This document shows, in pieces, positions 6,856-62,340 of a stretch of DNA of 64,000 nucleotides; the stretch's first letter is position 1; each line of letters opens with the position of its first letter. Below the pieces are notes generated by a model. It saw nothing but the letters and a program-made list of their open reading frames with translations. It searched no databases and was not told the origin of the DNA. Location: NCBI GenBank assembly GCA_963921795.1, contig OY997652.1, positions 55,549,838 to 55,613,837 of the forward strand. Reading direction: 5' to 3'. The position numbers were made by a program, and so were the translations under genes. The DNA is from Nannobrachium achirus (Eukaryota > Chordata > Actinopteri > Myctophiformes > Myctophidae).

Positions 6856-6934
6856 AGTGAAAATAGCCGATCTACAAGCACACAACGCCACACAGTGCGA
6901 GGCGTTGTGTGCTTGTAGATCTGCTATTTTCACT
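6856..6934. repeat. Short palindrome (recurrent family), full 79-bp copy
   Basis: Arms AGTGAAAATAGCCGATCTAC and complement, through ACAAGCACACAACGCC / GGCGTTGTGTGCTTGT. The variant CACACAAC in the left arm is matched by GTTGTGTG in the right arm. About 65 bp to its right (6935-7000) recurs inverted beside the copy at 37490-37568. Confidence 0.85.
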
Positions 6935-7009
6935 ACTCTAAATCATTTTAAAAATGATAAATACAAAACAAACGGTTTTGGACATACAAGGTTTCAATTC
7001 AATTAAATT

Positions 7010-7130
7010 CAATGTTATTAAAGTGTCAAATCAACAAGTTATCTCAAGGCACTTTACATACAGAGCAGAGACCCGAGCAGAGACCTCATGGTAGAAGACA
7101 ACACAAGTATCAAGCAGCAGCTAATGATGG
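7010..7130. repeat. Dispersed fish repeat
   Basis: The sequence around TTATCTCAAGGCACTTTACA is a motif I associate with an abundant teleost interspersed repeat. Family not determined. 7131-7750 shows no gene; it is AT-rich. Confidence 0.4.
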
Positions 7131-7759
7131 AATCATTGCTGTCAGACAGAAATTATAACTTTTCATAAATGAATGCCCTATTGATCATATTATGCAGTGT
7201 TTGAATCCTGGAAAGTAATGTATGAGGCTTCCACCTGACAGAGATGATAATATACTTTGATGTATTGTCTTACCTTCAGCCATTGTTTGCTCACAGAATT
7301 ACAGTCTTTATGCACAATGATCATCCAAAAAAGATAACTGAATGAAAAATATTACAAAAAGAGTGTAGTGTAGTGGTAAAAAAAGAAAAAAAAGAAAAGA
7401 AAAAAGATAATGAGTACAACTACTGTATCAACCACTTCAGTTAGCTAACTGAGGAGTAATTCCTTTACAAGGGCATTAGCAGCTGCCCCTTTTTTCTATT
7501 TTTCTACACCATGCATTTAAAAAATAATTAATATAATATTGTCTTTCCCAAAAACGTTTTTCAAAAGGTTTGAGGCTAAATTACCACTACTGAATACAGA
7601 GCCCCTGTCATTTCTGCCTGACTTTCAGAGCATTTTCAGCTGCAGTAGGCCTATATAACTTGTCCTGCCTCTCCCAGTTCCTCCCCTTCTCCTTCTCAGA
7701 CCTGCCCAACCCCCACTCAGCACAGCACACAGCACATTAAGGATGTCCATAATTACAAC

Positions 7760-8254
7760 TCCAGAGGCAGCGCCACAGATCAGTTTCAACCCAGAGTCAA
7801 AACCAACAAAGGGTCAAACTCTTTTTTCTGCTATACCACCAAAATGTGGAAAGCCTTACCGAAGCCCATAAAGTAGTGTGGATCACTAGCATCCTTTAAA
7901 ATTGCCCTGAAAAACCACTTACAGGCAGCAGCCGTTCGAACTGGTAAAAAAAAACTAACCTAGCCCAACCCTACCCTCCCCTGCCCCTTCTTTGTATATA
8001 CTTACTTACTGTTTAGACTCTTTTTTTTTCTCTCATTTTTTCTTTTCTTTACATATCTACTGCATAGTACTGTGTTCTATTCGTCTGTCATTCAATGTTA
8101 TATGAGATACTTAAATGGTTTCCTGTGGAAATAAGCTTAGTCTTTTCATGGATCTCCTTTTAGTAGACCTTGTACCAGTGAACTGTACCGTCATGAAACT
8201 GTACCTTTTCCTATGCAAACTTCTAATAAAGTCTTCAATCAATCAATCAATCAG
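7760..8254 (+). mobile_element. LINE 3' end (L2-like), 5'-truncated
   Basis: Translation around 7830-7950 gives a degenerate match to the carboxy-terminal end of L2/Rex-type reverse transcriptase ORFs (a conceptual KCGK-P...LKLP-KTT pattern), then a 3' UTR ending in AATAAAG and four CAAT repeats. The same 3' UTR occurs inverted at 46938-47012 plus 48354-48560, which supports a repeated element and defines its end. The coding part is broken. Confidence 0.65.
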
Positions 8255-8584
8255 CAGCAGCCCGTTCTGACTCTGAGACCTGCTTACATAGATCTGCCCA
8301 TAAACTGAGAAAGACACATTGCTCAGAAATAGGACATTGTGAGGAAGGTGCTGGTGGGACATAAAAAAAGACATAAACATGAGATTCGTGATGCCATTTG
8401 TTGCTCTCAAGTTATACAATGAGACACACAACGGTCCCATGGCAAGGACAAAATGTAACCTAGGAGTGTCGATATTGCAACATAACATTTGTTCGACATC
8501 CCACTAGTTCGACGCAGGTGAACGCTAACCTGGTGAAATGCTTACCTGTTGACACTGGTGAAAGCACCAGGTTAACCTGGTGAA

Positions 8585-8700
8585 TGTTAACCACTATGCC
8601 TAAACCTAACCCAAACCCAAACCCTAACCCAGACCCTAACCTCAGTAAAACTATGTCTAAACCTAAACCTAACCCTAACCCTTAGTCAAACTAAGGGTTT
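8585..8700. repeat. Degenerate telomere-like CCCTAA array
   Basis: Runs of CCTAAACCTAACCC, CCCTAACCC and the like, mixed with ACTAAGGG. Units are imperfect. 8255-8584 contains no recognisable feature. Confidence 0.6.
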
Positions 8701-8904
8701 TGCTTTAAGGTAACTTTTTTGTTTGTTTGGCACTGCAGATGTTTTAAGTATTATGATGTGACACTTTTGGGCTGGCTGTTTTTCATTTTGTTTTAGTTTG
8801 TTTTTCCCTATAGGGTCTGGCCTGGCTGGTGTGTGGACGTGTGGAGGTCTGCCTGGGCGGCGTTCTCATTTCCCAAATCCTCCTGCTGTTGGCTGGCTGC
8901 TCAC

Positions 8905-28026: not shown

Positions 28027-28360
28027 GAAATAACTAACTTCTTAAAATGTATGTTTTATACCGTAAGTCAGGGAAGGTTGTTTGAGTTGAAACTCATATT
28101 TAAGCATGTCATAGATAAGTGGCTGCTGCTCCTTTTTGGGACCTTCCCGGTTAGGTCTGGTTATATGGAAACGTAAGCAGAACTTGGTCCCGGAACTTAA
28201 CAGGTTCTTGAAAGTTCTTGGTTCTGGAAAGTTCTGGTTCTAGTTCTGGTTCGGCCCTGTAGTGTCTTGTTTTCATTACTCTTCGCATCTTGTCTTGCAA
28301 ATGAAAAGCCTGATTTATACATGGCTGCATGCCGGTGTCGCACAAACGGAAAAAAAGACA

Positions 28361-28421
28361 ATCCACAAGCTCACAACGCATTGCGCTGCGACTCAGTGTG
28401 AGCTTGTATATCTGCTATTTT
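28361..28421. repeat. Short palindrome copy
   Basis: ATCCACAAGCTCACAACGCA pairs imperfectly with GTGTGAGCTTGTATATC; the loop side carries GCGCTGCGACTC. It stands alone, not inside a recognised element. 28035-28360 and 28509-28901 hold no recognisable gene. Confidence 0.65.
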
Positions 28422-28474
28422 AAAAGCATGACATGGGGCGCAACCAAATATAAATGATGCAATCACTTCTCTCC

Positions 28475-29765: not shown

Positions 29766-29830
29766 ATTGTGAAAATAGCAGATCTACATGCTCACAAAGG
29801 CGTTGTGAGCAGATCTGCTATTTTCACAAT
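29766..29830. repeat. Short palindrome copy inside hAT
   Basis: ATTGTGAAAATAGCAGATC and complement. The variant CATGCTCACAA replaces CAAGCTCACAA; the right arm has lost part of its complement. Confidence 0.8.
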
Positions 29831-30786: not shown

Positions 30787-31189
30787 CAGGGGTCGTCAAC
30801 GTTTTCAGGACCCCCTCTACATATTGTATAAATGTTTGATGCAGATTTTCATCGATTACATAGATGGATTCATAGACTAGTTGTTTGACAGCACTGTCAT
30901 CAGTCTATGTTGGATTTGTCCATTCACCATTCGTTGACCATTTGTTTGCTCTTATTTTACCTCTACACCAAACCTATTTGCTGTAAATAGACGATCTCCA
31001 AGCTTGCGCTGCGAGGCGTTGAGAGCTTGTAGATCTGCTATTTAGGGCTAACGTTCTCCCAGAATAGCAATGCGAGGGTTCAAGTTCTTAATTAAAAAAT
31101 AAATAATCCTATCACAAAGATTTAGCGGCCCTCCTGTAGTAACTCTGAGGACCCCCTAGGGGTCCCGGACCTCCTGTTGAAGACCCCTG
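30787..31189. mobile_element. hAT-type element (CAGGGGTC ends)
   Basis: Ends CAGGGGTCGTCAACG and GTTGAAGACCCCTG, flanked by ATTTAGAG and ATTTAAAA (6 of 8 matching). It contains a copy of the palindrome at 30985-31043. A related piece is at 62171-62340 in the opposite orientation, with the palindrome in the same place. Confidence 0.7.
30985..31043. repeat. Short palindrome copy inside hAT
   Basis: AAATAGACGATCTCCAAGC against GCTTGTAGATCTGCTATTT, with a GCGCTGCGAGGCG middle. Confidence 0.75.
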
Positions 31190-33282: not shown

Positions 33283-33337
33283 GGCCACGTCACTATTGAC
33301 TAATCAATGCTTAGTTCAGTGTGCTATCAAGTACTGA

Positions 33338-33405
33338 AAATAGATGACCTCCAAGCTCACAACGCATCGCTGTGACGCGTTTGTGAGCTTGGAGGTCTGC
33401 TATTT
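33338..33405. repeat. Short palindrome copy with compensatory change
   Basis: GACCTCCAAGCTCACAACGC pairs with GCGTTTGTGAGCTTGGAGGTC; the CCTCC/GGAGG variant is present in both arms and is rare elsewhere in the family. Confidence 0.85.
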
Positions 33406-33493
33406 AACACGATTTCCAGGAGTATATAACAATAATCCAGCTCAATAACAAGTCGCTTAATCCTATGCACAATGCCCAAAGACAGGTAGTATA

Positions 33494-33735
33494 TGGCAGT
33501 GGTTCTCAACCTTTTCAGGCCGTGACCCCCGAATTAATCATAGCTGTAGTCTATTTGAACTGGGGATCCCGGCACCCTGAGGAGCACTAAGAGTTGAGGA
33601 ATTTTGTATAACATGGTTTTATTGTGAAAATAGCCGATCTACATGCTCAGTAGATCTGCTATTTTCACAATTTCTTTCTCTAATATTTGACAATTTGGCC
33701 AATGTTCAATTTGTCATTTCAGAGGTATTAACAAA
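33494..33735. mobile_element. Fragment of the 28902-type hAT, with palindrome
   Basis: Starts CAGTGGTTCTCAACCTTTTC. The palindrome at 33621-33671 is reduced to a 51-bp nearly perfect hairpin. The right end is missing. Confidence 0.75.
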
Positions 33736-36282: not shown

Positions 36283-36705
36283 TAGGGCTCTCACGATTAT
36301 GACATTTTACACAACGATTAATTGTCAATCAAATAATGCGATTAACGATTTAATTGTGTTTCTGTCATTGATAATTACATTCCTGTTTGGCTTGTAGGCT
36401 TTGAAGTTGCACTTGGCAAATATGACATATAACCTAAATATACAAAGAAATGACTTACTTATTTGACAACTTTATACTTGAAAAAGAACCTTGATAGATG
36501 GAAATAGCCGATCTACAAGCTCACAGCGCGTCGCGATGCAACGCGTTGTGAGCTTGTAGATAGGCTATTTCCACTATTTTGGAAAAATATTTGAAATTAT
36601 GAACATTTTTCAACATGTAAACGATCATGACGATTATGACAAAATAATTGCGATTATGTCAAATAATGGCGATTAGACGATTATGTAATAATTGTGACAG
36701 GCCTA
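36283..36705. mobile_element. hAT-type element (TAGGGCTGTCAC-like ends)
   Basis: TAGGGCTCTCACGATTA and AATTGTGACAGGCCTA ends; TSD CTGCAAAT / CTACAAAT (7 of 8). A complete palindrome copy lies inside at 36500-36572. A fragment of the same family is at 45835-45870. Confidence 0.75.
36500..36572. repeat. Short palindrome copy inside hAT
   Basis: GGAAATAGCCGATCTACAAG and complement. Here the outer arms read GGAAATAG/CTATTTCC, both changed from the usual GAAAATAG/CTATTTTC. Confidence 0.85.
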
Positions 36706-37489
36706 CTACAAATAGAACCAAATGGATTTTTTTTTATTATCATATATTGTTTTGTTTCGTTGCTTCTCATAGGAAATGATGGCAGATGTGAGCGAGTTAA
36801 GAATGTACAAGTGTATCAATAGACTAGGAGTGGGAGTGTTTGTTTGGTGAAACGAATGCCACGGGTCGATCTCCCGCCGTCTGCTTGTCTGTGCACGTTG
36901 AGGGCTGAACAGGGCTTAACCGAAAGATTGCAGCAAGACAGTTTAATTACAGGACTGTGCATGGTTAAATATGTCTGTATGCAATCAAAACAATACCTTA
37001 GTGCTGTTGCTTTGATGTGGACGTGACTTGTTTAGGTCTTGGCATTTTATGCTTTCCACATAATTGTATGTTATTGTGCGTATGTGTCAGTGTTTTTTTT
37101 TTTTTTTTTTAATTTTCAATAAATTATCTGAACAAAAGCGTGATCTCTCGTGTTATCATTGCCATTGTGAAACCAATATTGCAGTAACTGTATCCCTGTG
37201 TAGTGTTGTGTGGGAGGAAGTTACTGTTGCAATGGAACATGCAGCTGGGTGTCAGGCAGGGACGTGCTGGGCCCCTGTTTCAGCCCGGGGAAAAAAAGAG
37301 TTGGAGAGGCCCGCTATATAGAGAGAGATCGCGCTGCTGCTACTCAAAGATTTGCCGTTTCAGATCATGACAAGTGACAAGCCAGTGGGCCAATTACTGT
37401 ACATGAGTTATATTTCCTCGTTGTCGGGTGGAAACCTTATGTCCAAAACTGTTTGTTTTGTATTTATCATTTTTAAAATGATTTAAACT

Positions 37490-37568
37490 AGTGAAAACAG
37501 CAGATCTACAAGCACACAACACCTCGCACCGCGAGGCGTTGTGTGCTTGTAGATCAGCTGTTTTCACT
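37490..37568. repeat. Short palindrome copy, full 79 bp
   Basis: AGTGAAAACAGCAGATCTAC and complement; AACAGC/GCTGTT and CACACAAC/GTTGTGTG are both double changes. It shares flanking DNA, inverted, with the copy at 6856. 36714-37489 otherwise contains no gene. Confidence 0.85.
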
Positions 37569-37869
37569 ACTTTTGTGCAACCGCCTTGCATGATGAAGCA
37601 GGGCTTTGCTTTGGAAAACATGTACAAATTTGAAACTTGGAGATACGAGGTTTCTGCCCGACAGTGACGATTTACTTTGTTGGCCGCCCAGCCCCCAAAA
37701 TGGAACGAAGGCCGACATTTTATTTTTAATTTTTTCCTAATGGCCGGCCTGGACCGGCCGTTCGGGAGTTGTCCCGCTTTTCCCAATGGCCAGCACGTCC
37801 CTGGCTGGGTGTCAGGTCGGCCCTGTTGCCTCTGGCTGTGAGCAAAGTGTACAGTACGAAGTAGCCTAC

Positions 37870-38762: not shown

Positions 38763-38794
38763 GGTGTCGGGCCTTTGGTGCTTTAACTATTGAC

Positions 38795-38844
38795 AAATAG
38801 CAGATATATAAGCTCACAGCGCGGCACACTGCGAGCTTGTAGAT
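38795..38844. repeat. Short palindrome copy
   Basis: CAAATAGCAGATATATAAGC, GCGCGGCACACTGCG, AGCTTGTAGAT; the outer right arm is lost, while the duplicate at 51408-51467 keeps it. Confidence 0.7.
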
Positions 38845-39051
38845 TGAAAAATATTGATTTTTCATTCATTTTTGCAAGTCTTTGAATATTTCAAATCCTT
38901 CTAAGGTTTTATGAAAAACCAATGTTTCCCAGCTCAAAATATTTAGTTACAGGGACACCCCCCCCCCCCCCCCAGAAGCAAAATGTGTTACAAATGTTTG
39001 CTTAAGAAATACATATATTCAAAGATTTTCATCCATTTTCACAACTTTTCA

Positions 39052-39111
39052 AAAATAGCAGATCTACTAGCTCGCAGCGCGGCACTCTGTGCTGGTAGAT
39101 CTGCTAATTTT
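39052..39111. repeat. Short palindrome copy
   Basis: AAAAATAGCAGATCTACTAGC against GCTGGTAGATCTGCTAATTTT. Confidence 0.75.
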
Positions 39112-39199
39112 CAATAGCTAAATAATTAAGGCCCCTCCACCTTGGGCCCTAGTAAGTAACCCAGTTCCACTTTTTTTCCCCTCCAGGGGAATCAGACTA

Positions 39200-42663: not shown

Positions 42664-43537
42664 CAATTGACTGAAAATCGTACAAAAAAGTCAAAGAAGT
42701 TTAGGGATAAAGGATACGGCATGGACTGAAATTGGGCCCTTTATCCCCTCTCCTCTGTCTGTTTTGGACAGACATGCTATATTCAAGGGTCCATGGTGAA
42801 TCGTACTGAAGCGTCATAATGCTTAGTTGGCACCGCTTGCATCAACGCCACACTAGCTTTTAGGATGATTTTTTAACTCAATTATAAAGCTGTCAAAATT
42901 ATCACATTAACAGCGGTAATTATTTTTGGGAATTAATTGCGTGAACATATTTGAAACATTTAACGCATGAGCAGAATGACCCGCCCCATTCACTGATCCA
43001 AGGAGTCTTCACTCTGTAGAACACTGTGCTATGGAGAAGTATAACTCTGCTCCCCCTCAGCACAGACCCCCTGAGTCTGCAGAGCAGGAGAGAGAGAGAG
43101 AGACAGAAAGACGCTAAGCTGCCGTCTCAAAGTGAAGTTGTTAAAACCATGTCTTGGACCACTACTATCTGTGTTGCTGTTGTCATCTCAAATTGACCAG
43201 CCAAAGTGAAATCCACCATTTTAGGCTCCAACTTGCTTGGGTTAGAGTAGTGATCGCGGTGGATGTGTTTTCAACACTGTGTATATTATTGCCAGTCAGC
43301 TATGCTAAAGTTTGTAACATTAGCAGGTTAACAATGGCTTGTTGAGAAATGGACATTTGACCCTGATTTGACTACATACTGTAGGCCAGGGGTTTTTAAA
43401 GTTGGTGATAATATTTTGAGTTTAATTGGACACTTGAAAAGATATTAGTATCATCAAGCCGTGAGCTTGTAGATCGGCTATTTTCAGCACATGTTCCCCC
43501 TGCATAGGGATGCTAGGGTTCAAGTGGTTAAACTTAC

Positions 43538-45504: not shown

Positions 45505-45800
45505 AGAGTTCTCAAATTCTGCCCGAACCCGACCATACCCGAACCCGACCGACATTTAGGGTAGGGTAGGGCCTAAAATGTATGCTAATTAGTCGGGCCG
45601 GGTAGGGTCTCGAGCTCAATGAAAAAATAAAATATTTGTTTTTATTATTTTATTACTATTACTATATGATAGACGACCCGACGTTTTCGGGCCGGGTAGG
45701 TCCTAAAATGTATGCTAACTAGTAGGGCCGGGTAGGGCCTCGGGCCTGCCCAGTTAGGGCCGGGCCTTAATTTTCAGGCCCGTTGAGAACTCTATTCCAG
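45505..45800. repeat. Dispersed CCCGACC-rich repeat
   Basis: GGGCCGGGTAGGGTC and CCTAAAATGTATGCTAA blocks occur twice within the segment and again in copy 2 (57315-57555). Confidence 0.6.
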
Positions 45801-45905
45801 ACCTTAGTTTGGGCTAAAAATGGCTGCGCCAATAGGCCTGTCACAATTATTACATAATCCTCTAGCAGATCTACAAGATACTTTTTGACAGAGCACTTTC
45901 TGAAT

Positions 45906-46660: not shown

Positions 46661-46937
46661 TTTCTGAATATGCAATTATTCATAACCTTTAAGGTCTCTT
46701 TTCACTCAAATATGTTTTGTCTTCATCACATTATATGTGGAAAATACAACTAATATCATAATGTTACTCTCTCTGGAAAATGTTACTCTTTAAATTTAAG
46801 TAGAATGATTATTTTCTTTTTGGAAACATAACTCGATTATTTAGTGAATGCTTTGTGCAATGAGATATTTTATTCATTTATTTCAAGTAAACACTGTTCA
46901 GGTTCACAACCTAAATAGTGAAATGCCTTTTACATTC

Positions 46938-47012
46938 TTGATTGATTGATTGAAGAATGTATTAGAAGTTTGCATAGAAAAGGGTAACAGTTTCATGAAA
47001 GTACAGTTCACT
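46938..47012 (-). mobile_element. LINE 3' end, minus strand, first part
   Basis: Inverted match to 8165-8254 including the ATTG tail. The element resumes at 48354 after two foldback insertions. Confidence 0.75.
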
Positions 47013-48288
47013 TAGCCGCAAATTGCAACACTAGATTTTATTTTAATCGGACGAATCTAGGGTTGCAATACCTCCCATAGGCTGCCAATGCATCAAAACC
47101 GTTTTTTTGCTATCTGAATGTATTAAACGACGTCAAACTCACCAATATTGGGGTTGTATGGAAAGCTCTGAGTATCCTCTTTCTATCTGCAAAGAGTTTC
47201 TTTAATAAAACCCCACTGTAGACATGTTATGAGCTACTTTCTGTCAAGAAATCCAAGCAGACATGGTTTATTTTCCAAGTGTTGAACTTCGGAAGCGCTA
47301 TTACGCAGCGTCCCGCTGCCTCCTGCATTATGTGTCATTTAAAACCAGGTGGTACACAGGATCGCTGAGTGATTTCCCACAAGCACTTCCAAACTCCAGC
47401 ACTTAGAAAAAAATATCACCTGAAGCCAATTTCTTGATAGAAACTGGCTCATAACATGTCTACGGTTGCTTTTTATGAAACAAACACTTTGTAGATAGAA
47501 AGAGGATAGCCTACTCCAGGCTTTCCATAGAGCCCCAATATTGGTGAGTTTGACGTAATTTAATACAATCAGATAGCAAAAAACTGTTTTGATGCATTGG
47601 CTGCCTATGGGAGGTATTGCAACCCTAGCCGCAAATTGAAACACTAGATTTTATTTTAATCGGATGAATCTAGGGTTGCAATACCTCCCATAGGCAGCCA
47701 ATGCATCAAAACATTTTTTTGCTATCTGATTGGATTAAACGACGTCAAACTCACCAATATTGGGGCTGTATGGAAAGCTTGGATTATCCTCTTTCTATCT
47801 GCAAAGTGTTTGTTTCATAAAAATCCACCGTAGATATGTTATGAGCTACTTTCTATCAAGAAATTGGCTTCGGGTGATTATTTTTTCTAAGTGCTGGAGT
47901 TTGGAAGCGCTTGTGGGAAGTCACTCAGCGGACAATAGTACCAGCTGGTTCTAAATGATACATAATGCAGGAGGCAGCGGGACGCTGCGTAATAGAAGAC
48001 CAAACGCTTCCGAAGTTCAACACTTAGACAATAAACCATGTCTGCTCGGATTTATTGACAGAAAGTAGCTCATAACATGTCTACAGTGGAGTCTCATGAA
48101 AGAAACTCTTTGCAGATAGAAAGAGGATACTCAGAGCTTTCCATACAGCCCCAATATTGGTGAATTTGAAGTTGTTTATTACAATCAGATAGCAAAAAAC
48201 TGTTTTGATGCATTGGCTGCCTATGGGAGGTATTGCAACCCTAGATTCATCCGATTAAAATTAAATCTAGTGTTGCAATTTGCGGCTA
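47013..48288. mobile_element. Composite foldback, TAG ends, 9-bp TSD, in a LINE
   Basis: Ends TAGCCGCAAATTGCAACAC and complement; perfect TSD CAGTTCACT (47004-47012, 48289-48297) made from LINE sequence. It holds two successive inverted-repeat halves meeting near 47630, where the end sequence recurs internally. Copy 2 carries a related insertion at the same LINE position (from 58017), so it predates the segmental duplication. Confidence 0.88.
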
Positions 48289-48298
48289 CAGTTCACTG

Positions 48299-48353
48299 TA
48301 GCTCTGGTCCATAGCGTTAGTGGAGTTCTCCCTAACGCAATGGACCAGAGCTA
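48299..48353. mobile_element. 55-bp minimal derivative of the 8905-9575 foldback
   Basis: TAGCTCTGGTCCATAGCG...CAATGGACCAGAGCTA; little but two ends. Flanks AGTTCACTG / AGTTCAACT (7 of 9). It sits one base beyond the right TSD of the previous element. Confidence 0.75.
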
Positions 48354-49973: not shown

Positions 49974-50319
49974 CAGTGGTTCTCAACCTTTTCAGGCCGC
50001 GACACCCAAAATAATAATGTTTTAACTGGGACCCCCCCCCCCCCCCCTGACAAGCACTTGGAGTTGGAGTTTCACAATTTCTGCCTCTAATATTTGAATA
50101 TTTGGCCAATGTTTAATTTGTCATTTTAGAGGCATAAAAAAGTCCTCAAATTGGCACTTTAGAAATGTCCAGATACCCTCTACACACTTAAACTTTATGT
50201 TGGTTTGTTTACTGTTGAGTGACAAAACAATGTTGCACATTAAGTTAATCATCTGGGGACCCCCCAAAATAGTTTGGGGACCCCCCTGTGGGTCCTGACC
50301 CACAGGTTGAGAACCACTG
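49974..50319. mobile_element. hAT element (28902 type), complete, without palindrome
   Basis: CAGTGGTTCTCAACC to GGTTGAGAACCACTG; TSD GCCTAAAC / GCCTAACC (7 of 8). Where relatives carry the palindrome, this copy has only TTTCACAATTTC. 50337-50400 matches the end of the 31585 hAT. Confidence 0.85.
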
Positions 50320-50873
50320 GCCTAACCTGTAGGAGCAGGGATGTGCAGAGAATGTTAAAGAGGCAGGGGCTGCGCTCCGTTTCTCGATCTTACTGTTTCT
50401 CTATCTAACCGTGACATACATTCGAAAACTTGAAATAGGACATCCTGCACAATGAGTAGTTTTGGTTCTTTAAGTACATTTTTGCTGCCAATACTTTCCT
50501 ACTTTTACCCAAATTGTTAAGCTGTTTATTAGCATTTTTGTGCAAACACCGGAGGATCAGAGTTGAGGCTATGGGATCTGTCACCATGGTTACAGCCCTG
50601 CATGCTATGGGATCATCTCTAGCCGCTGGCTCCACACTGCCACGCAGAGAACGGCAGAACACACACTAGGACATTCACCAAAATATTAGAATATAAAGTC
50701 ACTATTCGACGTTGTTCACCGAAGTCGAATATTCGCTTATTTTTTTGGAAAAAAATGTTTTCTCTTTAAAAAATCTATATTTTATAAAGCTTGGCAAGAT
50801 AGGAAGTCATAAGAATGAGTTGTCAATGCCCCTGGTGGATGAATTTGTTAATGCTCTATACCAGGGGTTCTCA

Positions 50874-51100
50874 AACCTTTTTAGGCCGTGACCCCCAAAA
50901 TAAACATATATGAACTGGGGACCCCCACCCTGACAAGCACTCGGTTCCGCAGATATATTATTATATTATATATATTGTGAAAATAGCAGATCTACATGCA
51001 ACGCCTCGAGGCGTTGTGAGCATGTAGATCGGCTATTTTCACAATGTCCGCCTCTTGCTTACTTAATATTTGACAGTTTGGCCAGTCCTGTCGAATATTC
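50874..51100. mobile_element. Fragment of the 28902-type hAT with palindrome
   Basis: CAGGGGTTCTCAAACC start; the palindrome at 50974-51045 has a central CGCCTCGAGGCG, so the two arms meet almost without a loop. It lies within duplication copy 2 only. Confidence 0.75.
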
Positions 51101-51219
51101 GTCTATTCGAATACTTTGAGGTCGAATAATTTGAATACTAAAAATGACTATTCGTGAATGCCCTAACACACACATTGCAAAACTTATATAGGGCCTGTGT
51201 CCACATTTATGGCCTGTCT

Positions 51220-51376
<157 letters not shown>

Positions 51377-51407
51377 GGTGTCGGGCCTTTGGTGCTTTAA
51401 CTATTGA

Positions 51408-51467
51408 CAAATAGCAGATATATAAGCTCACAGCACGGCACACTGCGAGCTTGTAGATCTGCTATTT
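51408..51467. repeat. Short palindrome copy
   Basis: CAAATAGCAGATATATAAGC to GCTTGTAGATCTGCTATTT; duplicate of 38795 with an intact right arm. A shortened hairpin of the same family is at 51641-51673. Confidence 0.75.
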
Positions 51468-52254
51468 TTTGAAAAGTCTTGGACATTTTAGCAAGTCTTT
51501 GAATATTTCAAATCCTTCAAATGTTTCCCATCTCAAAATATTAAGTTCCAGGGACCCCCCCAGAAGCAAAATGTGAGTTACAAATGTTTGCTTAAAAAAA
51601 TACATATATTCAAAGATTTTCACCCATTTTCACCACTTTTCAAAAATAGCAGATCTACAAGCTCGCTATTTTTCAATAGCTAAATAATTAAGGCCCCTCC
51701 ACCTAGGGCCCTAGTAACCCAGTCCCACTTTTTGGGGTTACAGAAAAGGTTTACACTCAGTGGGAAATGAGCGGTGCTATTCATAAGTTAATTGCAACCA
51801 CACTAAACAATAATAATCGAACAAATATACAGAATAATGAGTTTTATTCATTTCAATACTAGTAAGACACCTCAGGGTGACTTGCGACCTCAGGGTGACA
51901 TGCGCCAATTCTTGGCCATCTGGCCAGTGATGTATATGGGACCAGTTACTCATAATATGGAGACCCCTTCATGATAGTTATGTTATGTCTAAACATGCCC
52001 ATATATGGACATTACCAAATATGGGCATTCCCATATATGTCCTTAACACCTTCTAAGCCAAGGGGGGCCCCTTAATGTTAAAACCGTACTATATCGCACA
52101 TCCCCCCAGGGACTCTCAGCCAGGCCGTCTATTCCCGGACTTTGTCTTTAAAACCGGAATAAAAGCTTTTGATCCGAAAATCGGCGATCGTCTAACCTTC
52201 CCTAGTCACCACTCGTGCACTGATGGCTCATGCAGACCGTGCATGAAGCAGAGG

Positions 52255-52262
52255 TGACGTCA
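52255..52262 (+). promoter_or_regulatory. CRE-like TGACGTCA
   Basis: Palindromic cAMP-response element sequence 72 bp upstream of a candidate start codon in GC-richer DNA. Confidence 0.4.
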
Positions 52263-52334
52263 GCGCCTCTCCTTCTCCAAGGCACCTTCCACCCATCCGT
52301 TTACTGTCTACACACTCGAGCTCCTCCTGCAGCC

Positions 52335-52499
52335 ATGCTTGGGGCTATGCTAGCGAAACTTTTCAGTTCTGTTCTTCAGTCACACATGGACTATTTGCGG
52401 GGACATTTACGTGAAAGGATCGCGCACGCGAAACGCACGGGGACATCGACGATCGGCCAAAACCCCCATTCTATCCCAACGGAGATCGAGAAAATCATG
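52335..52499 (+). CDS. Candidate first coding exon, unknown protein
   Basis: ATG at 52335 in a good context (GCAGCCATGC) opens MLGAMLAKLFSSVLQSHMDY and continues through RGHLRERIAHAKRTG and IPTEIEKIM to a strong donor (ATCATG|GTGAGT). It gives 55 codons, phase 0, and is CpG-rich compared with its surroundings. No family recognised; no downstream exon found on the plus strand before the zinc-finger exon of the opposite strand. It lies in the segment that replaces the distal fingers of gene 2. Could be the 5' exon of a captured gene or transposon. Confidence 0.4.
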
Positions 52500-53188
52500 G
52501 TGAGTTACTGGCCTGGGGGGAAAAAAAAAAGAAAAAACAGCGGCGCTGTTCAAGATGGAGGGGCTGCGGGGTCATGTTTATAAACATAATATTATGTCTC
52601 AGATCACAATACAATAATAGAAATTTCACGGCTAATCTACCAACCACCATTCTATTTCGGACTGCAACGTGTTAATATTGATAACATAATATCCTTAATA
52701 ATGTCCTTAATATTGACAATATAGGAATCTCCAAAAGGTTGTTTTCTTTTTCTGGGAATGACCATATATTTTTATTTTATCCTTTATTAATAATAATATG
52801 TATCCATATACATACAATTTATGTTATGCCCAATTTGCCCATACATGGAGATCCCTATCTGAACCAGCCACGGTATTTGCCCTGCATGTACGTGTGTCTC
52901 GTCTGCGTTGCGGCCTTGCGGGGGCCAATACGGATACCGAAACCACGTCATTGCCTTCGAGCAGGACTTGCATAGCTTTGTTTTGTTGACGCACTACCTC
53001 GGACTACACGTGATTCCCACATAATCATCATACGTAAGCAGGGCAACAACAACACACACAAGGATTTCCGGGTTCGTCGTGAACGTATCGATTCTGCCTT
53101 AAAATGTTCTTAATATTGACAATATAGGAATCTCCATATATGGGCATAAAACGTAGGGCCTTGGGCATAAGGGGGTACCCTAACATTC
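52500..53188. other. No gene seen
   Basis: AT-rich; contains repeated AATATTGACAATATAGGAATC blocks near 52710 and 53110. 51740-52254 similarly holds repeats of CCATATATGG-type words. Confidence 0.4.
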
Positions 53189-53733
53189 TCATTTTCGTTT
53201 ACAGTGGAAAGGTTTTTTTCCAGTATGAACATGCTGGTGTTTCTTCAGGTCACCTAACTGCCTGAAACTCGTGTCACAATGTTCACAGTGGTAGGGTTTT
53301 TCTCCAGTGTGGACACTTTGGTGGCTTCTCAGGCTTGATAACTGAGTGAAACTCTTTTCACAATGTTCACAGTGGAAAGGTTTTTCTCCAGTATGAACAC
53401 TCTGGTGTTTCTTCAGGTCACCTAACTGCCTGAAACTCTTGTCACAATGTTTACAAGGAAAAGGTTTTTCTCCAGTGTGGACACGCTGGTGGGTCTTCAG
53501 GTTACATGACTGACTGAAACTCTTGTCACAATGTTTACAGTGGAAACGTTGTTCTCCAGTGTGAACACGCTGGTGGCTCTTCAGGTTAAATGGCTGATTG
53601 AAACTCTTGTCACAATGTTTGCAGTGAAAAGGTTTTTCTCCAGTGTGAACACGCGTGTGGGTTTTCAGGAGAGATGGATGATTGAAACTCTTGTCACAAT
53701 GTTTACAGTGGAAACGTTTTTGTCCAGCGTCTC
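53189..53733 (-). CDS. C2H2 zinc-finger protein 2, finger exon (truncated)
   Basis: Acceptor in a CT tract, then [14 protein letters not shown] and six complete fingers; a seventh begins FHCK and ends RK-stop at 53189, where homology to gene 1 is lost. Fingers 4 and 6 share RQLGDLKKH. The loss of the distal array is due to the replacement segment at about 51735-53188. May still encode a shortened protein. Confidence 0.8.
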
Positions 53734-53734
53734 C

Positions 53735-53741
53735 TGAGAGA

Positions 53742-53810
<69 letters not shown>

Positions 53811-53845
53811 GCGGGGAGAGTAGGGTAGAGGGGAGAGAGAGAGAA
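53735..53845. repeat. GA/CT microsatellite forming the splice-acceptor tract
   Basis: Counterpart of 40587-40648, longer and with several interruptions. Confidence 0.85.
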
Positions 53846-54229
53846 GAAGAATTGGGGAGAGGCAGGTTAAAACTGTTAATTATAAAATGTTAATTATAAA
53901 ATTATGAAATTACGGCTTCCCTGATAATATTTCTGATTTAATTGTATTTTTCTTTTATTCCAACTCCCAGTTTCTTTTCCCCACACATGTACTGTAAAAG
54001 CCTCTATCATAGTCAAAGGTGAAGAAGAGCTATCACCTCACCGCGGTGTAGTTTTCTAGCTATCACCTAGGCTTTGTTACACATTTTTAGGTGATGGCTA
54101 GAACACTACACCGTGGTGAGGTGATTGCTCTTCACCTTGGACTATGAAAGAGGCTTCAGTCCTATCCATGTGTTTAACACATGGATAGGACTGAAGCCTC
54201 CACACAGTCAGTGTTTAACACTGACTCAC

Positions 54230-54727
54230 CTCCACTGGTCTCCTCCCAATCGTCACTGTCTTCAGTGACTTCAGAGTCAGATTCAAGCTCGACTTCAACT
54301 CCAGAACAGTGCGAAGAGATGTCTTCATCATCGTTTTCACTTTTCACTGCTGGTAATGTCGACGTTGACCCATCAGGCTCCTCTGGTCTTTGAAGTAGCT
54401 CCTCCTGTTCCTCCTTAATGTGTGGAGGCTCTGGTTCCTCCTGTTCCACTTTAATGTGTGGAGGCTCTGGTTCCTCCTGTTCCTCTTTAATGTGTGGAGG
54501 CTCTGGTTCCTCCTGTTCCTCTTTAATGTGTGGAGGCTCTGGTTCCTCCTGTTCCTCTTTAATGTGTGGAGGCTCTGGTTCCTCCTGTTCCTCTTTAATG
54601 TTTGGAGGCCCTGGTTCCTCCTGTTCCTCTTTAATGTGTGGAGGCTCTTGTTCCTCCTGGAGCAGACTGGAGCTCCTCTCCTGTTCAGGAAAAACCTCCG
54701 CTTTACACACAACCACGTGCAGGATAC
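54230..54727 (-). CDS. C2H2 zinc-finger protein 2, acidic repeat exon
   Basis: Same design as 40849-41670: ILHVVVCKAEVFPEQ, then 7 units of the 12-residue IKEE repeat (one IKVE), then the Ser/Asp/Glu end and a GTGAGT donor. The 324-bp length difference from gene 1 is exactly nine 36-bp units. Frame and phase are intact. Confidence 0.85.
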
Positions 54728-55282
54728 CTAGGAGAAGAAAATAAATATCTAATAATTCAAATCTCCATGGGGTGAGTAAATCGATAGATAAAAATACATT
54801 TTTGGGGTGAACTATCCCTTTAACCCCATCAGTGCCAGCTTTCACCACTAGAGGGCGCCCAGTGGCCAAAGAATTCATCATAAAGATACACTGTTACATG
54901 CACAAGCCCTGCGCAGCCATGATGCACCAGAACACTTTCCTCTGTTCATTTACAGGAACAGGATGAAGTTAGCTTGAAGTTAACATTTAAAAAAATGGGA
55001 TAGGCACTGTATGAGTTAAGTGTAAACAAACATATGTCCATCCTCTGTGTACAAAATGAGGTATCATCTTCTCAACTCAATTACTGCCACTCACGTCTTT
55101 TTACCATTTATATATTCTTTTTTTCAAAGGCCCACACTGCCAAAAACCTCTTTTCAAGCGTGATTCTTTTCTTCAGAGTTTATGCTACACGCACAGGCAG
55201 TGAAAGACAGACATTTTCGGGTTGCTCGGGTGGTCGCCGTCAATGAGTTAAACTTCTTTTCTATTTATTTCTATTTTAATAC

Positions 55283-55334
55283 TTCAAATAGCCGTCTACA
55301 TCGACACGTTTTCAGCTTGTAGATCAGCTATTTG
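55283..55334. repeat. Short palindrome copy
   Basis: TTCAAATAGCC-TCTACATCGAC against AGCTTGTAGATCAGCTATTTGAA; duplicate of 42609. Left arm lacks GA of the GATC. Confidence 0.7.
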
Positions 55335-56174
55335 AACAATTGACTGAAAATCGTACAGAAAGGCAAAGAAGTTTAGGGATAAAGGATACGGTACAGACGG
55401 AAATTGGGCCCTTTATCTCCTCTCCTCTTTTTGGACAGACATGCTATATTCAAGGGCCCATGGTGAATAGTACCGAAGCGTCATAATGCTTAGTTGGCAC
55501 CGCTTGCAACAACGCCACACGATGATTTTTTAACTAAATTCTAAAGCTGTCAAAATTATCACATTAACAGCGGTAATTATTTTTTGGAATTAATTGCGTG
55601 AACATATTTGACACATTTAACGCATGAGCAGAATGACCCGCCCCATTCACTGATTCAAGGAGTCTTCTCTGTAGAACACTGTGCTATGGAGAAGTATAAC
55701 TCTGCTCCCCCTCAGCACAGACCCTCTGAGTCTGCAGAGCAGGAGAGAGAGACAGACAGAAAGACGCTAAGCTGCCGTCTCAAAGTGAAGTTGTTAAAAC
55801 CATGTCTTGGACTACTACTATCTGTGTTGCTGTTGTCATCTCAAATTGACCAGCCATGATTTTAGGCTCCAACTTGCTTGGGTTAGAGTAGTGATCGCAG
55901 TGGATGCGTTTTCAACACTGTGTATATTATTGCCAGTCAGCTATGCTACAGTATGTAACATTAGCAGGTTAACGATGGCTCGTTGAGAGATGCACATTTG
56001 ACCCTGATTTGACCACATGGGCCAGGGGTTTTCAAAGTTGGTGATAATATTTGGAATTTATTTGGACACTTAAAAAGATATTTAGTATCATCAAGTCGTG
56101 AGTTTGGAGATCGGCTATTTTCTGCACATGTTCCCCCTGCATAGGGATGCTAGGGTTCAAGTGGTTAAACTTAC

Positions 56175-56276
56175 TGAAGTGTTGGTGGTCTTCAGGTTCC
56201 TCCTGTTTAATAGAAATGTCCCTGGCTGAGTCTGGAGAGTTCATCTTCACCTGCAGTCTGGACTCCACACACTGGT
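56175..56276 (-). CDS. C2H2 zinc-finger protein 2, first coding exon
   Basis: ATG at 56244, MNSPDSARDISIKQEEPEDH as in gene 1; acceptor TTTCAG and donor GTAAGTT retained. Confidence 0.78.
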
Positions 56277-56479
56277 CTGAAATGAAGCAATTCAACAAGG
56301 ACTTTAATAATCTCAGACCTAGTGGTGTCAAGAATATGAAAATAATGGTATAAAAGTGAATTAGATGGAAGTAGACAAGCTGCTTTTAATGTTTAACCTT
56401 TAACTGTTTATTATAGCACAGCTAGCTGTATTGTATTCATTTCACCCCTAGAAGATATTTTAAGAATATTTCAGGCAGT

Positions 56480-56975
56480 GTGTGGCGCGTGTATCAAAAG
56501 AGCATCCCGATTCCAGCAGTGGAAGCTCGTGATTGGATGAACTGGAGGTAGGGAGCGCTCCGTTGTGTTCCCCTGGACCGCGCGGAGGTCCCGAAAATCG
56601 GGGGGGGGGGCTGAAGATTTACTATCCTGTCCATAAAGGTACATAAGTCAGTAACGGCGCTGAGTTGGCTCATGCGACCCTCACAACGCTCGACACGGCG
56701 ACTCGCTCGCTACCGCTCATTCGGCGGTGTCTCACGGGCTCATGGTCGCCTGAGACGGCGCGCCTCTGTCATCTCCACCGAAAACAAGCGCTCCGCCCTT
56801 GGTCCATTGTTGGAACCGGATCTCTTGACCAGTTTAACTCCAGACAGCATCAGTCGTCATCCTGTTAACACGCTAAGGAGACGGTGCCACCTCTCAAAAA
56901 TATGGACTTAAACATTCCGGAGAGCTTCCTGATGGATAGATGACCCTTTGGAGCAAGAAGGGAAGACCTTTTATT
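56480..56975 (-). promoter_or_regulatory. CpG-rich promoter/5' UTR segment of zinc-finger gene 2
   Basis: Counterpart of 44600-45115; the CCAAT box is kept (GTGATTGGATG, 56530). The GCGGAGGTCCCGAAAATCGG area differs from the other copies and contains a new G run. Confidence 0.45.
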
Positions 56976-57225
56976 TTGTATTCGTGCATGTTTGGAGCAG
57001 TAAGAGAATCAAACGAGCTCATCGACGTGTTAAAAAATAAATAAATAAAACACGCACAAATGCAAAATAAAAGGTGCTCCATTCTTGCTCCAAGTGTAAT
57101 CTATCCATCAGGAAGCTCTCCGGAAAGTTTAAGTACACATTTTTGGGCGGTGGCACCGTCTCCTTAGCGTGTTACCAGGACGTCGACTGACGCTGTCTCA
57201 AGTCAAACTGGTCTCGAGATGAACT
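56820..57225. repeat. Inverted repeat beside the promoter, copy 2
   Basis: Same arms as 44957-45410, with a shorter TAAA-containing loop. Confidence 0.75.
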
Positions 57226-57937
57226 ATAACACTGGGATGCAGTTTTGATTCACGCGTGTGGCAGTGTGAGTGTCTTTTATTCTTCACTATAAATCCAGGC
57301 TATCCATTCCATTCCGAAATTTAGGGTAGGGTAGGGCCTAAAATGTATGCCAATTAGTCGGGCCGGGTAGGGTCTGGGGCTCAATGATAAAATTTAATAT
57401 TTGTTTTTATTATTATATTACTATTACTATATGATAGACGACCCGATGTTTTCGGGCCGGGTAGGTCCTAAAATGTATGCTAACTAGTAGGGCCGGGTAG
57501 GGCCTCGAGCCTGCCCAGTTAGGGCCGGGCCTTAATTTTCAGGCCCGTTGAGAACTCTATTCCAGACCTTAGTTTGGGCTAAAAATGGCTGCGCCAATAG
57601 GCCTGTCACAATTATTACATAATCCTCTAGCAGATCTACAAGATACTTTTTGACAGAGCACTTTCTGAATATGCAATTATTCATAACCTTTAAGGTCTCT
57701 TTTCACTTAAATATGTTTTGTCTTCATCACATTATATGTGGAAAATACAACTACCTCATAATGTTACTCTCTCTGGAAAATGTTACTCTTTAAATTTAAG
57801 TAGAATGATTATTTTCTTTTTGGAAACATAACTCGATTATTTAGTGAATGCTTTGTGCAATGAGATATTTTGTTCATTTATTTCAAGTAAACACTGTTCA
57901 GGTTCACAACCTAAATAGTGAAATGCCTTTTACATTC

Positions 57938-58374
57938 TTGATTGATTGATTGATTGAAGAATGTATTAGAAGTTTGCATAGAAAAGGGTAACAGTTTCAT
58001 AAAAGTACAGTTCACTTAGCCGCAAATGGCAACAGTAGATTTTATTTTAATCGGACGAATCTAGGGTTGCAATACCTCCCATAGGCAGCCAATGCATCAA
58101 AACTGTTTTTTTTTTGCTATCTGATTGCATTAAACGACGTCAAACTCACCAATATTGTGGCTCTATGGAAAGCTTGGAGTATCCTCTTTCTATCTGCAAA
58201 GTGTTTGTTTCAGAAACATCCACCGTAAACATGTTATGAGCCAGTTTCTATCAAGAAATTGGCTTCAGGTGATATTTTTTTCCAAGTGCTGGAGTTTGGA
58301 AGCGCCTGTGGGAACTCACTCAGCGATCCTGTGTACCACCTGGTTCTAAATGTCACATAATGCAGGAGGCAGCG
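57938..58374. mobile_element. LINE tail plus left part of 47013-type foldback, copy 2
   Basis: The LINE 3' end (57938-58016) is followed by TAGCCGCAAATGGCAAC as in copy 1. The foldback is interrupted at 58375 and resumes at 58996, then is truncated near 59150. Confidence 0.75.
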
Positions 58375-58986
58375 TAGCTCCTTTCGGAACCCCTCACTCC
58401 ACTACTACGCAGCTCCGAGATGGGGTTCCTACTGGTCGGCTGCCGAAATCTTGTTGTTGGATCCACGATCCGCCGTTAGCGATCACTTCTTACCTTTGAT
58501 GAACACTCTATCCAAAAAGTGACGGGCCTCTGTGAAAGTATAATCGTTTTAATCCTTTAGCGTGGAACAAACTCAAAGCACTGGGGTGAAATGAAGACTT
58601 TATATGGCTCAAAAGACCAGCCGGTTCTGTGTTTTTAGACATTCCGGAGGTTGCGGCCGCATACGAAAACATTACTGCCTCCCCTGGTCACGTGGTATAT
58701 ACACGTTACACAACGGGAAAAACACAGAACCGGCTGCCCGCGGCTGGTCTTTTGAGCGATATAAAGTCTTCATTTCACCCCAGTGCTTCGAGTTTGTTCC
58801 ACGCTAAAGAAGTAAAACGATTATACTTTCACAGAGGCCCGTCACTTTTTGGATAGAGTGTTCATCAAAGGTAAGAAGTGATCGCTAACGGCGGATCGTA
58901 GATCCAACAAGATTTCGGCAGCCGACCAGTAGGAACCCCATCTCGGAGCTGCGTAGCAGTGGAGTGAGGGGTTCCGAAAGGAGCTA
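58375..58986. mobile_element. Foldback element, TAG ends, 9-bp TSD, absent from copy 1
   Basis: Ends TAGCTCCTTTCGGAACCCC and complement; perfect TSD GAGGCAGCG (58366-58374, 58987-58995). Copy 1 has the uninterrupted site (GCAGGAGGCAGCGGGACGC, near 47968). Arms of about 270 bp, centre with a CACGTG and MboI-like spacing of no known meaning. Confidence 0.9.
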
Positions 58987-59357
58987 GAGGCAGCGGGACG
59001 CTGCATAATAAAAGACGAGCGCTTCCGAAGTTCAACACTTAGAAAATAAACCATGTCTGCTCGGATTTCTTGACAGAAAGTAGCTCATAACATGTCTACG
59101 GTGGGGTTTTATGAAAGAAACTCTTTTCAGATAGAAAGAGCCCACTGAGCATTTTGAGGTTTATTAGTTGCCTAATAGTGGTGTTTTTATCTTCTACACC
59201 ACGCGTTGAAAATCAGTGTTGTAAAGGTCTAGATTTGAAATGTTTTGCTAGTTGTTTAGTCGGCTATATTTACACGGGTTGCTACACTAGACCACTATTA
59301 GTCGGATACAAAAAGTCTACATTTCGCCGTTAGCGGCCGTCGAAAGTAGTGAAAAGT

Positions 59358-59431: not shown

Positions 59432-60239
59432 AGATATGATAGTATAGACTTTCTGGCCGTATTAAAAGGTGACATTGCCCACCTGTGTTCATTTTAGGGC
59501 AGTGCGCATTGTTGAGGAAACTAAATGTATTGGGCGTCTAATAAGCCTATAGCGATTACAATTATTTTTTTTAATCAGTACGTATTGAATGATGTGGCGG
59601 GGGCGGCGCCGCGGCTGTGTTTGACTGTGTGTGTTGCTGTCAGAAATGTAATTCAGAGTAGCATGCTGTCTGGACGTTTCCACTTTACAGTGAGTGACTA
59701 CACACAATCACGGTAATTAATTAACACTCTACCGGCTTACCGCGCCTTAGTACCAAGGATAACTTTTACATGGTCTAAAGATAGTCGTTGAAATGCTGTA
59801 TTTAAAACGACTACACCCAGACCGTCCAGACGCATACCTTATAGTGATGAATGGCTATTAAAATAATTTTACACCAATATTTGGCTATCAGTTCTGCAAC
59901 GTGCAGTTGTTTTTTAAATAAATATTTATTAAAACAGGGATTAACTTCAATTGTCTAAATTATGTCTAAATATAAACGTAGATACGCCGACTATACACTA
60001 CTATACGCAATGCACTATGGGGCGTTGGAAACTCGTGGATATAACACATGTTGAAAAGCACCGATCCGCTATTAAACAACCACATGTTGACGATGACCGC
60101 TTCCTGTGAATGACGCGATGACGTCAAACCGGAAGTGTTTACGCTATGGACTTCTGGCCTTCAAAATAAGACAACAGTCGTGGATGCAGCCTGCGGAAGG
60201 CACGCTGGACATTTTAATCCGTTAATTTCAGGAGCACGA
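59432..60239. other. No gene seen
   Basis: 60005-60245 matches pieces at 2110-2150 and 4795-4890 and is an old dispersed repeat; the rest is unassigned. Confidence 0.4.
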
Positions 60240-60350
60240 AATGAGTTAAAAAGATATTTAGATTCATCAAGTCGTGAGCTTGTAGATCGGCTATTTTCAG
60301 CACATGTTTCCCCTGCATAGGGATGCTAGGGTTCAAGTGGTTAAACTTAC

Positions 60351-60452
60351 TGAAGTGTTGGTGGTCTTCAGGTTCCTCCTGTTTAATAGAAATGTCCCTG
60401 GCTGAGTCTGGAGAGTTCATCTTCACCTGCAGTCTGGACTCCACACACTGGT
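60351..60452 (-). pseudogene. Third copy of the zinc-finger first coding exon
   Basis: ATG at 60420, same peptide start as genes 1 and 2, both splice sites kept. No acidic-repeat or finger exon follows on the minus strand (the DNA below 60240 is unrelated), so it is an orphan exon. Confidence 0.75.
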
Positions 60453-60659
60453 CTGAAATGAAGCAATTCAACAAGGACTTTAATAACCTCACACCTAGTG
60501 GTGTCAAGAATATGAAAATAATGGTCTAAAAGTGAATTAGGTGAAAGTAGCCAATCTGCTTTTAATGTTTAACCTTTAACTGTTTATTATAGCACAGCTG
60601 GCTGTATTGTATTCATTTCACCCCTAGAAAAAGGGAAGATATTTTAAGAATATTTCAGG

Positions 60660-60953
60660 CAGTGTGCGGCGCGTGTATCAAAAGAGCATCCCGATTCCAG
60701 CAGTGGAAGCTCGTGATTGGCTGAACTGGAGGTAGGGAGCGCTCCGTTGTGTTCCCCTGGACCGCGCGGAGGTGACGAAAGTCGAGGAGGCTGAAGATTT
60801 AATGTTCTGTCCATAAAGACCCATAAGTCGGTAACAACGCTGAGTAGGCTCATGCGACCATCGCAACGCTCGACACGGCGACTCGCTCGCTACCGCTCAC
60901 TCGGCGGTGTCTCACGAGGCTCATGGTTGCCTGAGACGGCGCGCCTCCGTCTA
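60660..60953 (-). promoter_or_regulatory. Third copy of the CpG-rich segment, truncated
   Basis: Matches 44640-44912 closely, then breaks at TAGGGATGTGCGCGATTATTC, which looks like a hAT end. Confidence 0.5.
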
Positions 60954-62170
60954 GGGATGTGCGCGATTATTCGGTTATCCGACTACACTGACTACACCGA
61001 CTACACTGATCCAGAGTGGGTGCACGTCGCTGAATGCTGCGGCAGCAGCAGCTGTCTGTCTGTCTTTCTGCTGCTTCAACATGAGTAGGCCTACATTGAG
61101 TGATTTAGCAGCATTCATCATTCATTAATCTTAAAACTTGCTACGTTGAAAAGTTTGTCTGAGTGCTTTGTCTTTGATGGAGAAATCAAATCCAAACAAG
61201 GCGACTGGATGTGAATCACTCGTTACCTCAGCTCGAGCCTGTTGCATCAGTGTGATCCGCTCATCTGAAGAATAATCCATTTTGAGGTGAGAACATGGAG
61301 AAAGTAGTAGTCTCAGTCAGGGTTCGAGTTATGTGGGTGCCAGTAGGGGCTTAGCCCCCATAGATAAAGTCTGGGACCCCATAGTAAAAAACCCCTATGG
61401 GGTCTCTTTTTTTTCCCAAGTGTGTTTTTTTTTTTTTTTTTTTTTTATTATTTTTTTTTTTTTACTGACAGTCCCACATATCATACCTAAATGTCCAAAT
61501 AGATAAACGTATTCCCACCATACATTGCCGGCAAATATCGAACACAAGGATTTTCAGTTTCACAGTGCAAGGAGTGCAGTTAACATAGGTGCAATACAGC
61601 CAGCCGCCTGCACTGTTTGTAGCGGGGGCGCTAGCGAGATAGAGATAGTTGAGAGGACTGAATTTTGCACAGTGAGGAAGAAGAGAGACGAACGCTCCGT
61701 GCAGTGAGCAGCTGAGGAGAGGGGACTGGAGTGAGCTCCGTGAAGTCAGCTGCATTAGCGTTTCCGGCCTGGGAGCTGGCTGCATTAAGCGAAGCTCCAG
61801 CCTTCAAAATAAAAGTCCACTAAATAATGTTTATTTAAAAGACACAAATGTATTTTAGAAATACGTGTATGATGTATGTCTCTATACTAGTGTACTTCTA
61901 ATTGTCCTAACACATTTTCCAGGTTATTTCAGATTGAAATTCGTGGTATGCGAGCCATTAAAGGCCACTTAACAAGTTAATTCCATTCTTTCTATTGTAA
62001 TCCATAGAAGAGCTTCAATTGGTTGTTGAGTAGGCTACATCTAATGAGGTCCAGTTACTTAATTATCAATTTTACTTTATCTGTTTATTTAGATTGGGCA
62101 GATGTAATGTATGGTAGGCTACTATGGGCTTAATGTAAGTAATGAAAATACACCGTGTGTGCATGTACAC
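60954..62170. other. No gene recognised
   Basis: Begins with a hAT-like end, followed by CTGT/CAG short repeats and a T-rich tract (61407-61463). No coding frame I can support. Confidence 0.4.
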
Positions 62171-62340
62171 CAGGGGTCTTCAACAGGGGGTCCAGGACCC
62201 CTATCGGGTCCTCAGAATTACTACAGGGAAAGGCACCAAATCTATGTGTGATAGGACCATTCTTTTGAGGAGAACTTTAGCCAAAAATAGAAGATCTACA
62301 AGCTTGTAGATCTGCTATATTTGGCAATAGGTTTGGTGTT
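62171..62340. mobile_element. Fragment of the 30787-type hAT with palindrome
   Basis: CAGGGGTCTTCAACAGGGGG start, GGTCCTCAGAATTACTACAG as in the inverted 30787 element. The palindrome (62282-62323) is reduced to GAAGATCTACAAGC/GCTTGTAGATCTGC with no loop. Confidence 0.75.

Follow-up and report, generated by a model that had tools for sequence, protein, structure and literature searches.

The 64,000-nucleotide window analysed here (C15:55549838-55613837, on contig OY997652.1 of the fish Nannobrachium achirus, whose genome holds 1,658,514,493 bases, or 1.66 Gb, in 564 contigs) carries copies of a near-perfect palindrome that sits within short DNA transposons of at least three kinds: hAT-type elements, TTAA-flanked elements, and elements of about 257 bp with a 4-bp A/T target duplication. 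Extrapolation from a 250-kb sample puts the palindrome at about 4x10^5 copies per genome, about 2% of it. Its stem extends into family-specific flank, and its spacer is found in both orientations, with several changes of state on a tree built from flanks. The arms are probably kept alike by template switching along the lineages of the host elements, the copy number having come from transposition of the hosts.

In its usual form the palindrome reads AAATAGC[A/C]GATCTACAAGCTCACAACGC[C/G]TCGC-NNN-GCGA[G/C]GCGTTGTGAGCTTGTAGATC[T/G]GCTATTT. The core consists of two 33-bp arms and a 3-nt spacer, frequently with 5-10 more paired bases outside, and the whole measures about 70-85 bp with arms of 33-40 bp. 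The preliminary description of the window listed 17 full hairpin copies. All 17 are present in the sequence and are recovered by a covariance model (R1) built from 31 canonical palindrome copies, 16 of them at a best-strand E of 0.021 or below and the copy at 2189 at 0.13. The paired arm variants named there are seen as well: CACACAAC at 6856 and 37490, GGAAATAG at 36500, GACCTCC at 33338, AACAGC at 37490 and CATG at 50974. As separate occurrences the copies are fewer, since several are not independent and about nine contexts stand behind the 17. The pairs 38795/51408, 39052/51641 and 42609/55283 are segmental duplicates, as are the half copies 43456/56094/60270; one element family holds 29766, 33621 and 50974, another holds 6856 and 37490, and 30985 and 62282 have the flank of family F1 in common.

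Folding of nine window stretches gave z-scores of -7.9 to -13.9 for seven of them and -4.1 for 28350-28421; the ninth, 2204-2258, gave +1.1 and was badly placed on the palindrome. Genome-wide matches to the arm 15-mer GTAGATCTGCTATTT number 109,372 on the forward strand and 109,036 on the reverse. Chance is excluded because these 218,408 matches stand against about three expected (our own arithmetic, assuming equal base use) and none for the reversed control; together with the folding scores and the covariation described below, these counts rule out chance or AT-rich folding as the source of the palindrome. It does not belong to a known RNA family, judging by the window, where no Rfam model passes its gathering score; no transfer RNA was found there either. 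One 20-mer has no matches in viral contigs and none in prokaryote contigs. The covariance-model search suggested in the preliminary description was run on the window and on a sample of 25 ten-kilobase stretches at round coordinates on contigs C1-C22 (250 kb). At E up to 0.001 the sample contains 66 distinct places (a hand count from 156 strand-wise matches), with at least one in 21 of the 25 stretches, and the window itself contains 14.

The palindrome had been placed inside at least three hAT families and in other repeats. Several unrelated hosts are indeed found, but they are of different types: hAT-type, TTAA-flanked, and the 4-bp type of family F3. The F3 element is about 257 bp long, with ends CGTCGTTGTCGGGTG and the palindrome at its centre. 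A matching 4-bp A/T target duplication accompanies 30 of 41 end pairs, a count that includes some elements twice, once per strand, and many that go back to a single insertion within a larger repeat, most loci having been fetched because they bear the palindrome. Copies of F3 lie within several larger hAT-like composites. The core of F1, CCACTTGAACC..GGTTCAAGTGG, has TTAA on both sides in five of eight end pairs (two of the other three may be chance matches), and four of the five contain the palindrome; having TTAA on both sides, this core is a TTAA-flanked (piggyBac- or Kolobok-like) miniature inverted-repeat transposable element (MITE). It is nested inside a hAT-like element whose ends, CAGGGGTCTTCAA, are seen in the alignment alone. 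Family F4 holds two palindromes per element, and its copy at L007:3163-3670 has hAT-type ends of the CAG..CTG type with the 8-bp target duplication GAGACATG on both sides. Directly outside the F4 core CTATTG..CAATAG, at F4 palindromes, TTAA occurs in 0 of 21 cases; in some other F4 copies an end reading TTAA-CCCATTTAG lies farther out on one side. Family F2 has one hAT-type end. Pure descent within a single transposon lineage is rejected because the ends and target duplications of the hosts differ. The host elements are presumably non-autonomous, given their shortness. Other TTAA-type ends (L016:5786, L023:2744 and L012:9899) have short palindromes of other sequence just inside the end, which would suggest that subterminal palindromes are common among ends of this type.

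The arms of the palindrome vary together when families are compared. An alignment of 30 distinct palindromes has a covariation score of 0.228; shuffled alignments score 0.130, none of 500 reaching the observed value, and sliding the partners gives 0.05-0.07. Similarity between arms is also seen beyond the core. At positions 7, 9, 10 and 12 the outer arms match within a copy at 0.73, 0.61, 0.61 and 0.62, and between copies at 0.41, 0.29, 0.33 and 0.34; the excess vanishes by position 16 (71 of 72 hairpins with enough flank). It is kept in 24 non-redundant contexts, with 0.83 against 0.51 at position 6 and 0.54 against 0.28 at position 13.

Several counts weigh against copying between arms. Pairs changed on both sides show a weaker excess than the covariation score (18 of 40, against 14.5 in shuffles, with 16 of 500 as high, in the same 30 palindromes). 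In F3, the 70 ungapped copies among the 100 listed carry 33 changes in the left arm and 41 in the right; private paired changes number two, one of them in a copy that also bears a nearby deletion, against 0.87 in shuffles (P 0.22), and 68 single-arm changes are unpaired. In F1, where 24 of 31 printed copies are ungapped, there are four paired doubles, two of them three bases apart in the same copy, against 2.0 expected (P 0.13), and 62 unpaired single-arm changes. Pooling four families (34 ungapped hairpins) gives 10 paired changes against 4.0 at P 0.006, a value that mixes subfamilies in the F1 group. The consensus sequences contain mismatched pairs themselves, two in F4 and one each in F1 and F3. 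Because the excess of paired changes within young families is small and non-significant, the covariation is for the most part old and common to whole families, and a new mutation usually goes unrepaired. The compensatory changes expected from the preliminary description are thus apparent between families and weak within them, and the higher identity within copies than between copies, also claimed there, is largely family history and not continual repair of each copy. At pair 12 of 33 in the F4 consensus (GATATAC/GTAGATC) a mismatch is fixed family-wide while the rest of the stem pairs, and 15 of the 30 aligned copies are unpaired at this position.

The spacer exists in two mutually complementary states in two families. 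Among the 70 ungapped F3 copies it reads ACC in 50, the reverse complement GGT in 15 and something else in five; among the 31 printed F1 copies GCT is found in 17, its reverse complement AGC in 10 and other spacers in four. On a tree of 40 F3 copies built from flanks only, the spacer state needs at least seven changes, at least four of which are forced by well-supported branches; the rows of this tree comprise 14 picked as GGT and 26 with ACC, bootstrap values were still not quite stable, and the branch leading to row L030 is long. An exact 89-mer context, made up of the left arm together with 44 bases of its flank, the spacer and eight right-arm bases and identical apart from the spacer, occurs genome-wide at 84 places with GGT and at 23 places with ACC, the latter spread over 13 contigs. 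From these distributions we infer, short of proof, that the spacer was repeatedly inverted in place. A point against this is that ectopic gene conversion could have carried spacer states from one copy to another, or that a small number of flipped masters could have been amplified.

The preliminary description offered selection on the hairpin or arm-to-arm repair as the cause of the paired variants. Arm-to-arm copying is the better of the two, in view of the stem extension and the spacer inversion, and it is preferred because inversion of a spacer is the footprint of template switching in replication; nothing in the data requires selection on the hairpin. As the mechanism we infer template switching, which would work as follows. 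Transposition of unrelated short host elements would carry the palindrome to about 4x10^5 copies. A strand stalled during DNA replication would switch template and copy the partner arm, and such switches would turn mismatches into paired changes, push the stem outward into the flank specific to each family, and invert the spacer. Slippage across the hairpin would delete centres, and occasional exchange between palindromes of different elements would join unrelated flanks. Template switching is reported to cause arm homogenisation, stem extension and loop inversion (PMC8604942; PMC8794818), and the palindrome resembles the inverted repeats treated there in all three respects, including inversion of the full spacer. 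In the available text of these papers the events are single ones, traced in yeast genes, microRNA and ribosomal RNA loci, with ten spacer inversions in yeast genes; here, by contrast, one palindrome is present in about 4x10^5 copies, and both spacer states are common in two families. The accessible parts of PMC8794818 report 69 clusters of loop changes, in hairpins that pair perfectly, which inversion would fit, and describe loop inversions tied to compensatory changes as extremely rare in its data.

Rather unlikely, in our estimate, is a functional explanation, under which the palindrome would serve the elements, for example as a hairpin that a transposase binds or that takes part in regulation; selection on active masters would preserve arm complementarity, and dead copies would inherit the arms. 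Paired changes lying mainly at the level of families, with few within them, would agree with it, as would the two palindromes in each F4 element. A precedent exists in the transposase-bound subterminal palindromes of piggyBac and piggyBat, which likewise lie inside TTAA-type transposon ends; according to the portion of the source available, these are about 14-19 bp long and bound by a transposase domain (PMC11707139). They are much shorter than arms of 33-40 bp, whereas the palindrome described here has 66-80 paired bases and is found in non-TTAA elements too. The same palindrome is carried by elements that differ in their ends and target duplications and would presumably depend on different transposases, and selection explains neither the inversion of the 3-nt spacer nor outer arms that are matched within families and differ between them. 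Selection on hairpin function in masters is possible as an explanation for the arms; flipped spacers are not predicted by it.

The palindrome had also been thought to spread as a module. It is present in several unrelated elements, but most sampled copies spread with the host element, because their flanks are repeated: both flanks are clustered in 67 of 105 hairpins (33 of the 105 are in 40 fetched C1 loci). The 18 hairpins with a clustered flank on neither side, and the fact that the palindrome is the part common to F1, F2, F3 and F4, would suit an ultra-short foldback element, itself mobile and inserted separately into several transposons. We regard this as improbable, and an independently mobile palindrome is not supported. 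Flanks at the palindrome edges, read by eye, are inverted and not directly repeated, and no direct target duplication is visible by eye except for one doubtful case, L006:4616, an old palindrome copy with TGTCACRTGACA, itself palindromic, on both sides. Three of four F2 copies without the palindrome are deletions that retain one half, and the fourth is ambiguous. Among the 30 listed F3 copies that are not ungapped, 23 have lost more than three bases in or close to the centre (our own reading of the alignment), the visible deletion sizes being bounded by the gap range of the search pattern. Very short F3 forms number 175 (67+108); the 100 that were listed are joined in many different ways, several of which recur, as would be expected of deletions, and none has CTAGTG exactly abutting CACTAC. 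Nearest to a possible empty site are two of these 100, which read CTAGTGACTAC, one base short of exact abutment; they count in favour of a mobile palindrome. The comparison of occupied with empty sites, proposed earlier, therefore yielded no clean empty site in F2 or among the listed short F3 forms.

Recombination between palindrome copies might join unrelated element ends, so that the palindrome would serve as a hub of exchange from which new transposon families arise. Two junctions speak for such exchange: at L022:7352 and its tandem copy 4162 an F1 flank is joined to an F4 flank at the palindrome, and in L088 two right-hand flanks of F1-type elements stand head to head across it. For some inner and outer flank types of F4, too, more than one combination exists; these were not counted as inter-family. 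These two are the only clear inter-family events among the 105 hairpins, 67 of which have both flanks clustered. Inter-family exchange at the palindrome is rare, because the exact product F1R-palindrome-F1R occurs genome-wide at 0 places against 1275 (660+615) normal F1 copies, a result that also weighs against the exchange step in the template-switching scheme. The role of a hub is accordingly doubtful. A further candidate, F2R joined to flank cluster 18 (L096, L098 and L104), was dropped as a whole because the joint in L098 and L104 lies about 12-14 bp outside the palindrome. At L091:55-240 four palindrome units form a head-to-tail array with shared AGCTTGTAGATCTACAAGCT joints.

More speculatively, the palindrome might be a self-renewing element of replication error, whose hairpin provokes the switching that renews and extends its arms, inverts its spacer and sometimes swaps its flanks, seeding new transposon families; we give this wider notion little credence. 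Evidence for template switching at hairpins usually comes from isolated events. With the hundreds of thousands of near-replicate copies considered here, whose flanks can be dated, a single genome would suffice to measure how often spacers are inverted, arms homogenised, stems extended and centres deleted. It could also be tested directly whether selection is needed at all for changes in a stem to be paired.

The hosts resemble hAT and TTAA-flanked MITEs in being short and in having hAT-like ends with an 8-bp duplication, or TTAA on both sides; what sets them apart is the near-perfect palindrome they share, which is long, lies internally and is distinct from their terminal repeat. Zebrafish Angel elements are likewise short MITEs with strong hairpin potential. 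Among fish, a similar case is gadMor-hAT-1784 of Atlantic cod, a hAT-derived MITE with internal inverted repeats that is credited with recombination (PMC12368964). Its inverted repeats differ in being about 600 bp long and composed of 167-169-bp tandem units, and a short palindrome common to several superfamilies is not described in the available part of that paper (PMC12368964). In the literature searched, the 15-mer GTAGATCTGCTATTT is found in no paper and no title or abstract opening describes a shared palindrome of this kind; most subscription journals lie outside the coverage, hence this is no proof of novelty.

Palindrome copies and related features of the window (positions count from the first base of the window)
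Feature	Position	Strand	Basis
Diverged palindrome copy, family F7	2189..2237	.	sequence; R1 E 0.13; relative L011:7573
F3-type palindrome, CACACAAC arms; right flank F3, left flank fits no family label	6854..6936	.	
Diverged palindrome copy	28345..28427	.	covariance model
F2 palindrome; hAT-type end CAGTGGTTCTCAACC about 110 bp off in family alignment	29766..29830	.	
Palindrome of F1-type element	30978..31050	.	
Palindrome, arms GACCTCC/GGAGGTC	33331..33410	.	folding and model
F2 palindrome with centre deleted	33621..33671	.	
Palindrome, outer arms GGAAATAG/CTATTTCC	36495..36577	.	folding and model
Complete F3 element: inverted ends, 4-bp target duplication ATTT, central palindrome	37416..37669	+	
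Palindrome within complete F3 element 37416..37669	37488..37570	.	folding and model
F4 palindrome, first of the element's two	38788..38859	.	
F4 palindrome, second of the element's two	39046..39116	.	
Palindrome, outer arms TTCAAATAG/CTATTTGAA	42605..42667	.	
Half copy adjoining TTAA-CCACTTGAACC end	43461..43485	.	
F2 palindrome with CATG arms	50974..51045	.	folding and model
F4 palindrome, segmental duplicate of 38788	51402..51474	.	
F4 palindrome remnant, duplicate of 39046	51637..51678	.	
Palindrome, duplicate of 42605	55279..55340	.	
F1 palindrome with centre deleted	62278..62327	.	

A further relative of the copy at 2189, L012:8357, was seen solely in a loose scan of the fetched loci. A segmental duplication of about 10 kb comprises window positions 38090-48300 and 50117-59140. 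It contains tandem 84-bp units at 39210-40668 and 53197-53815, a length that units of C2H2 zinc-finger arrays also have. Units of 36 bp lie at 41019-41602 and 54400-54659. Positions 62504-64000 consist of tandem repeats of about 185 bp that are 98-99% alike and extend past the end of the window.

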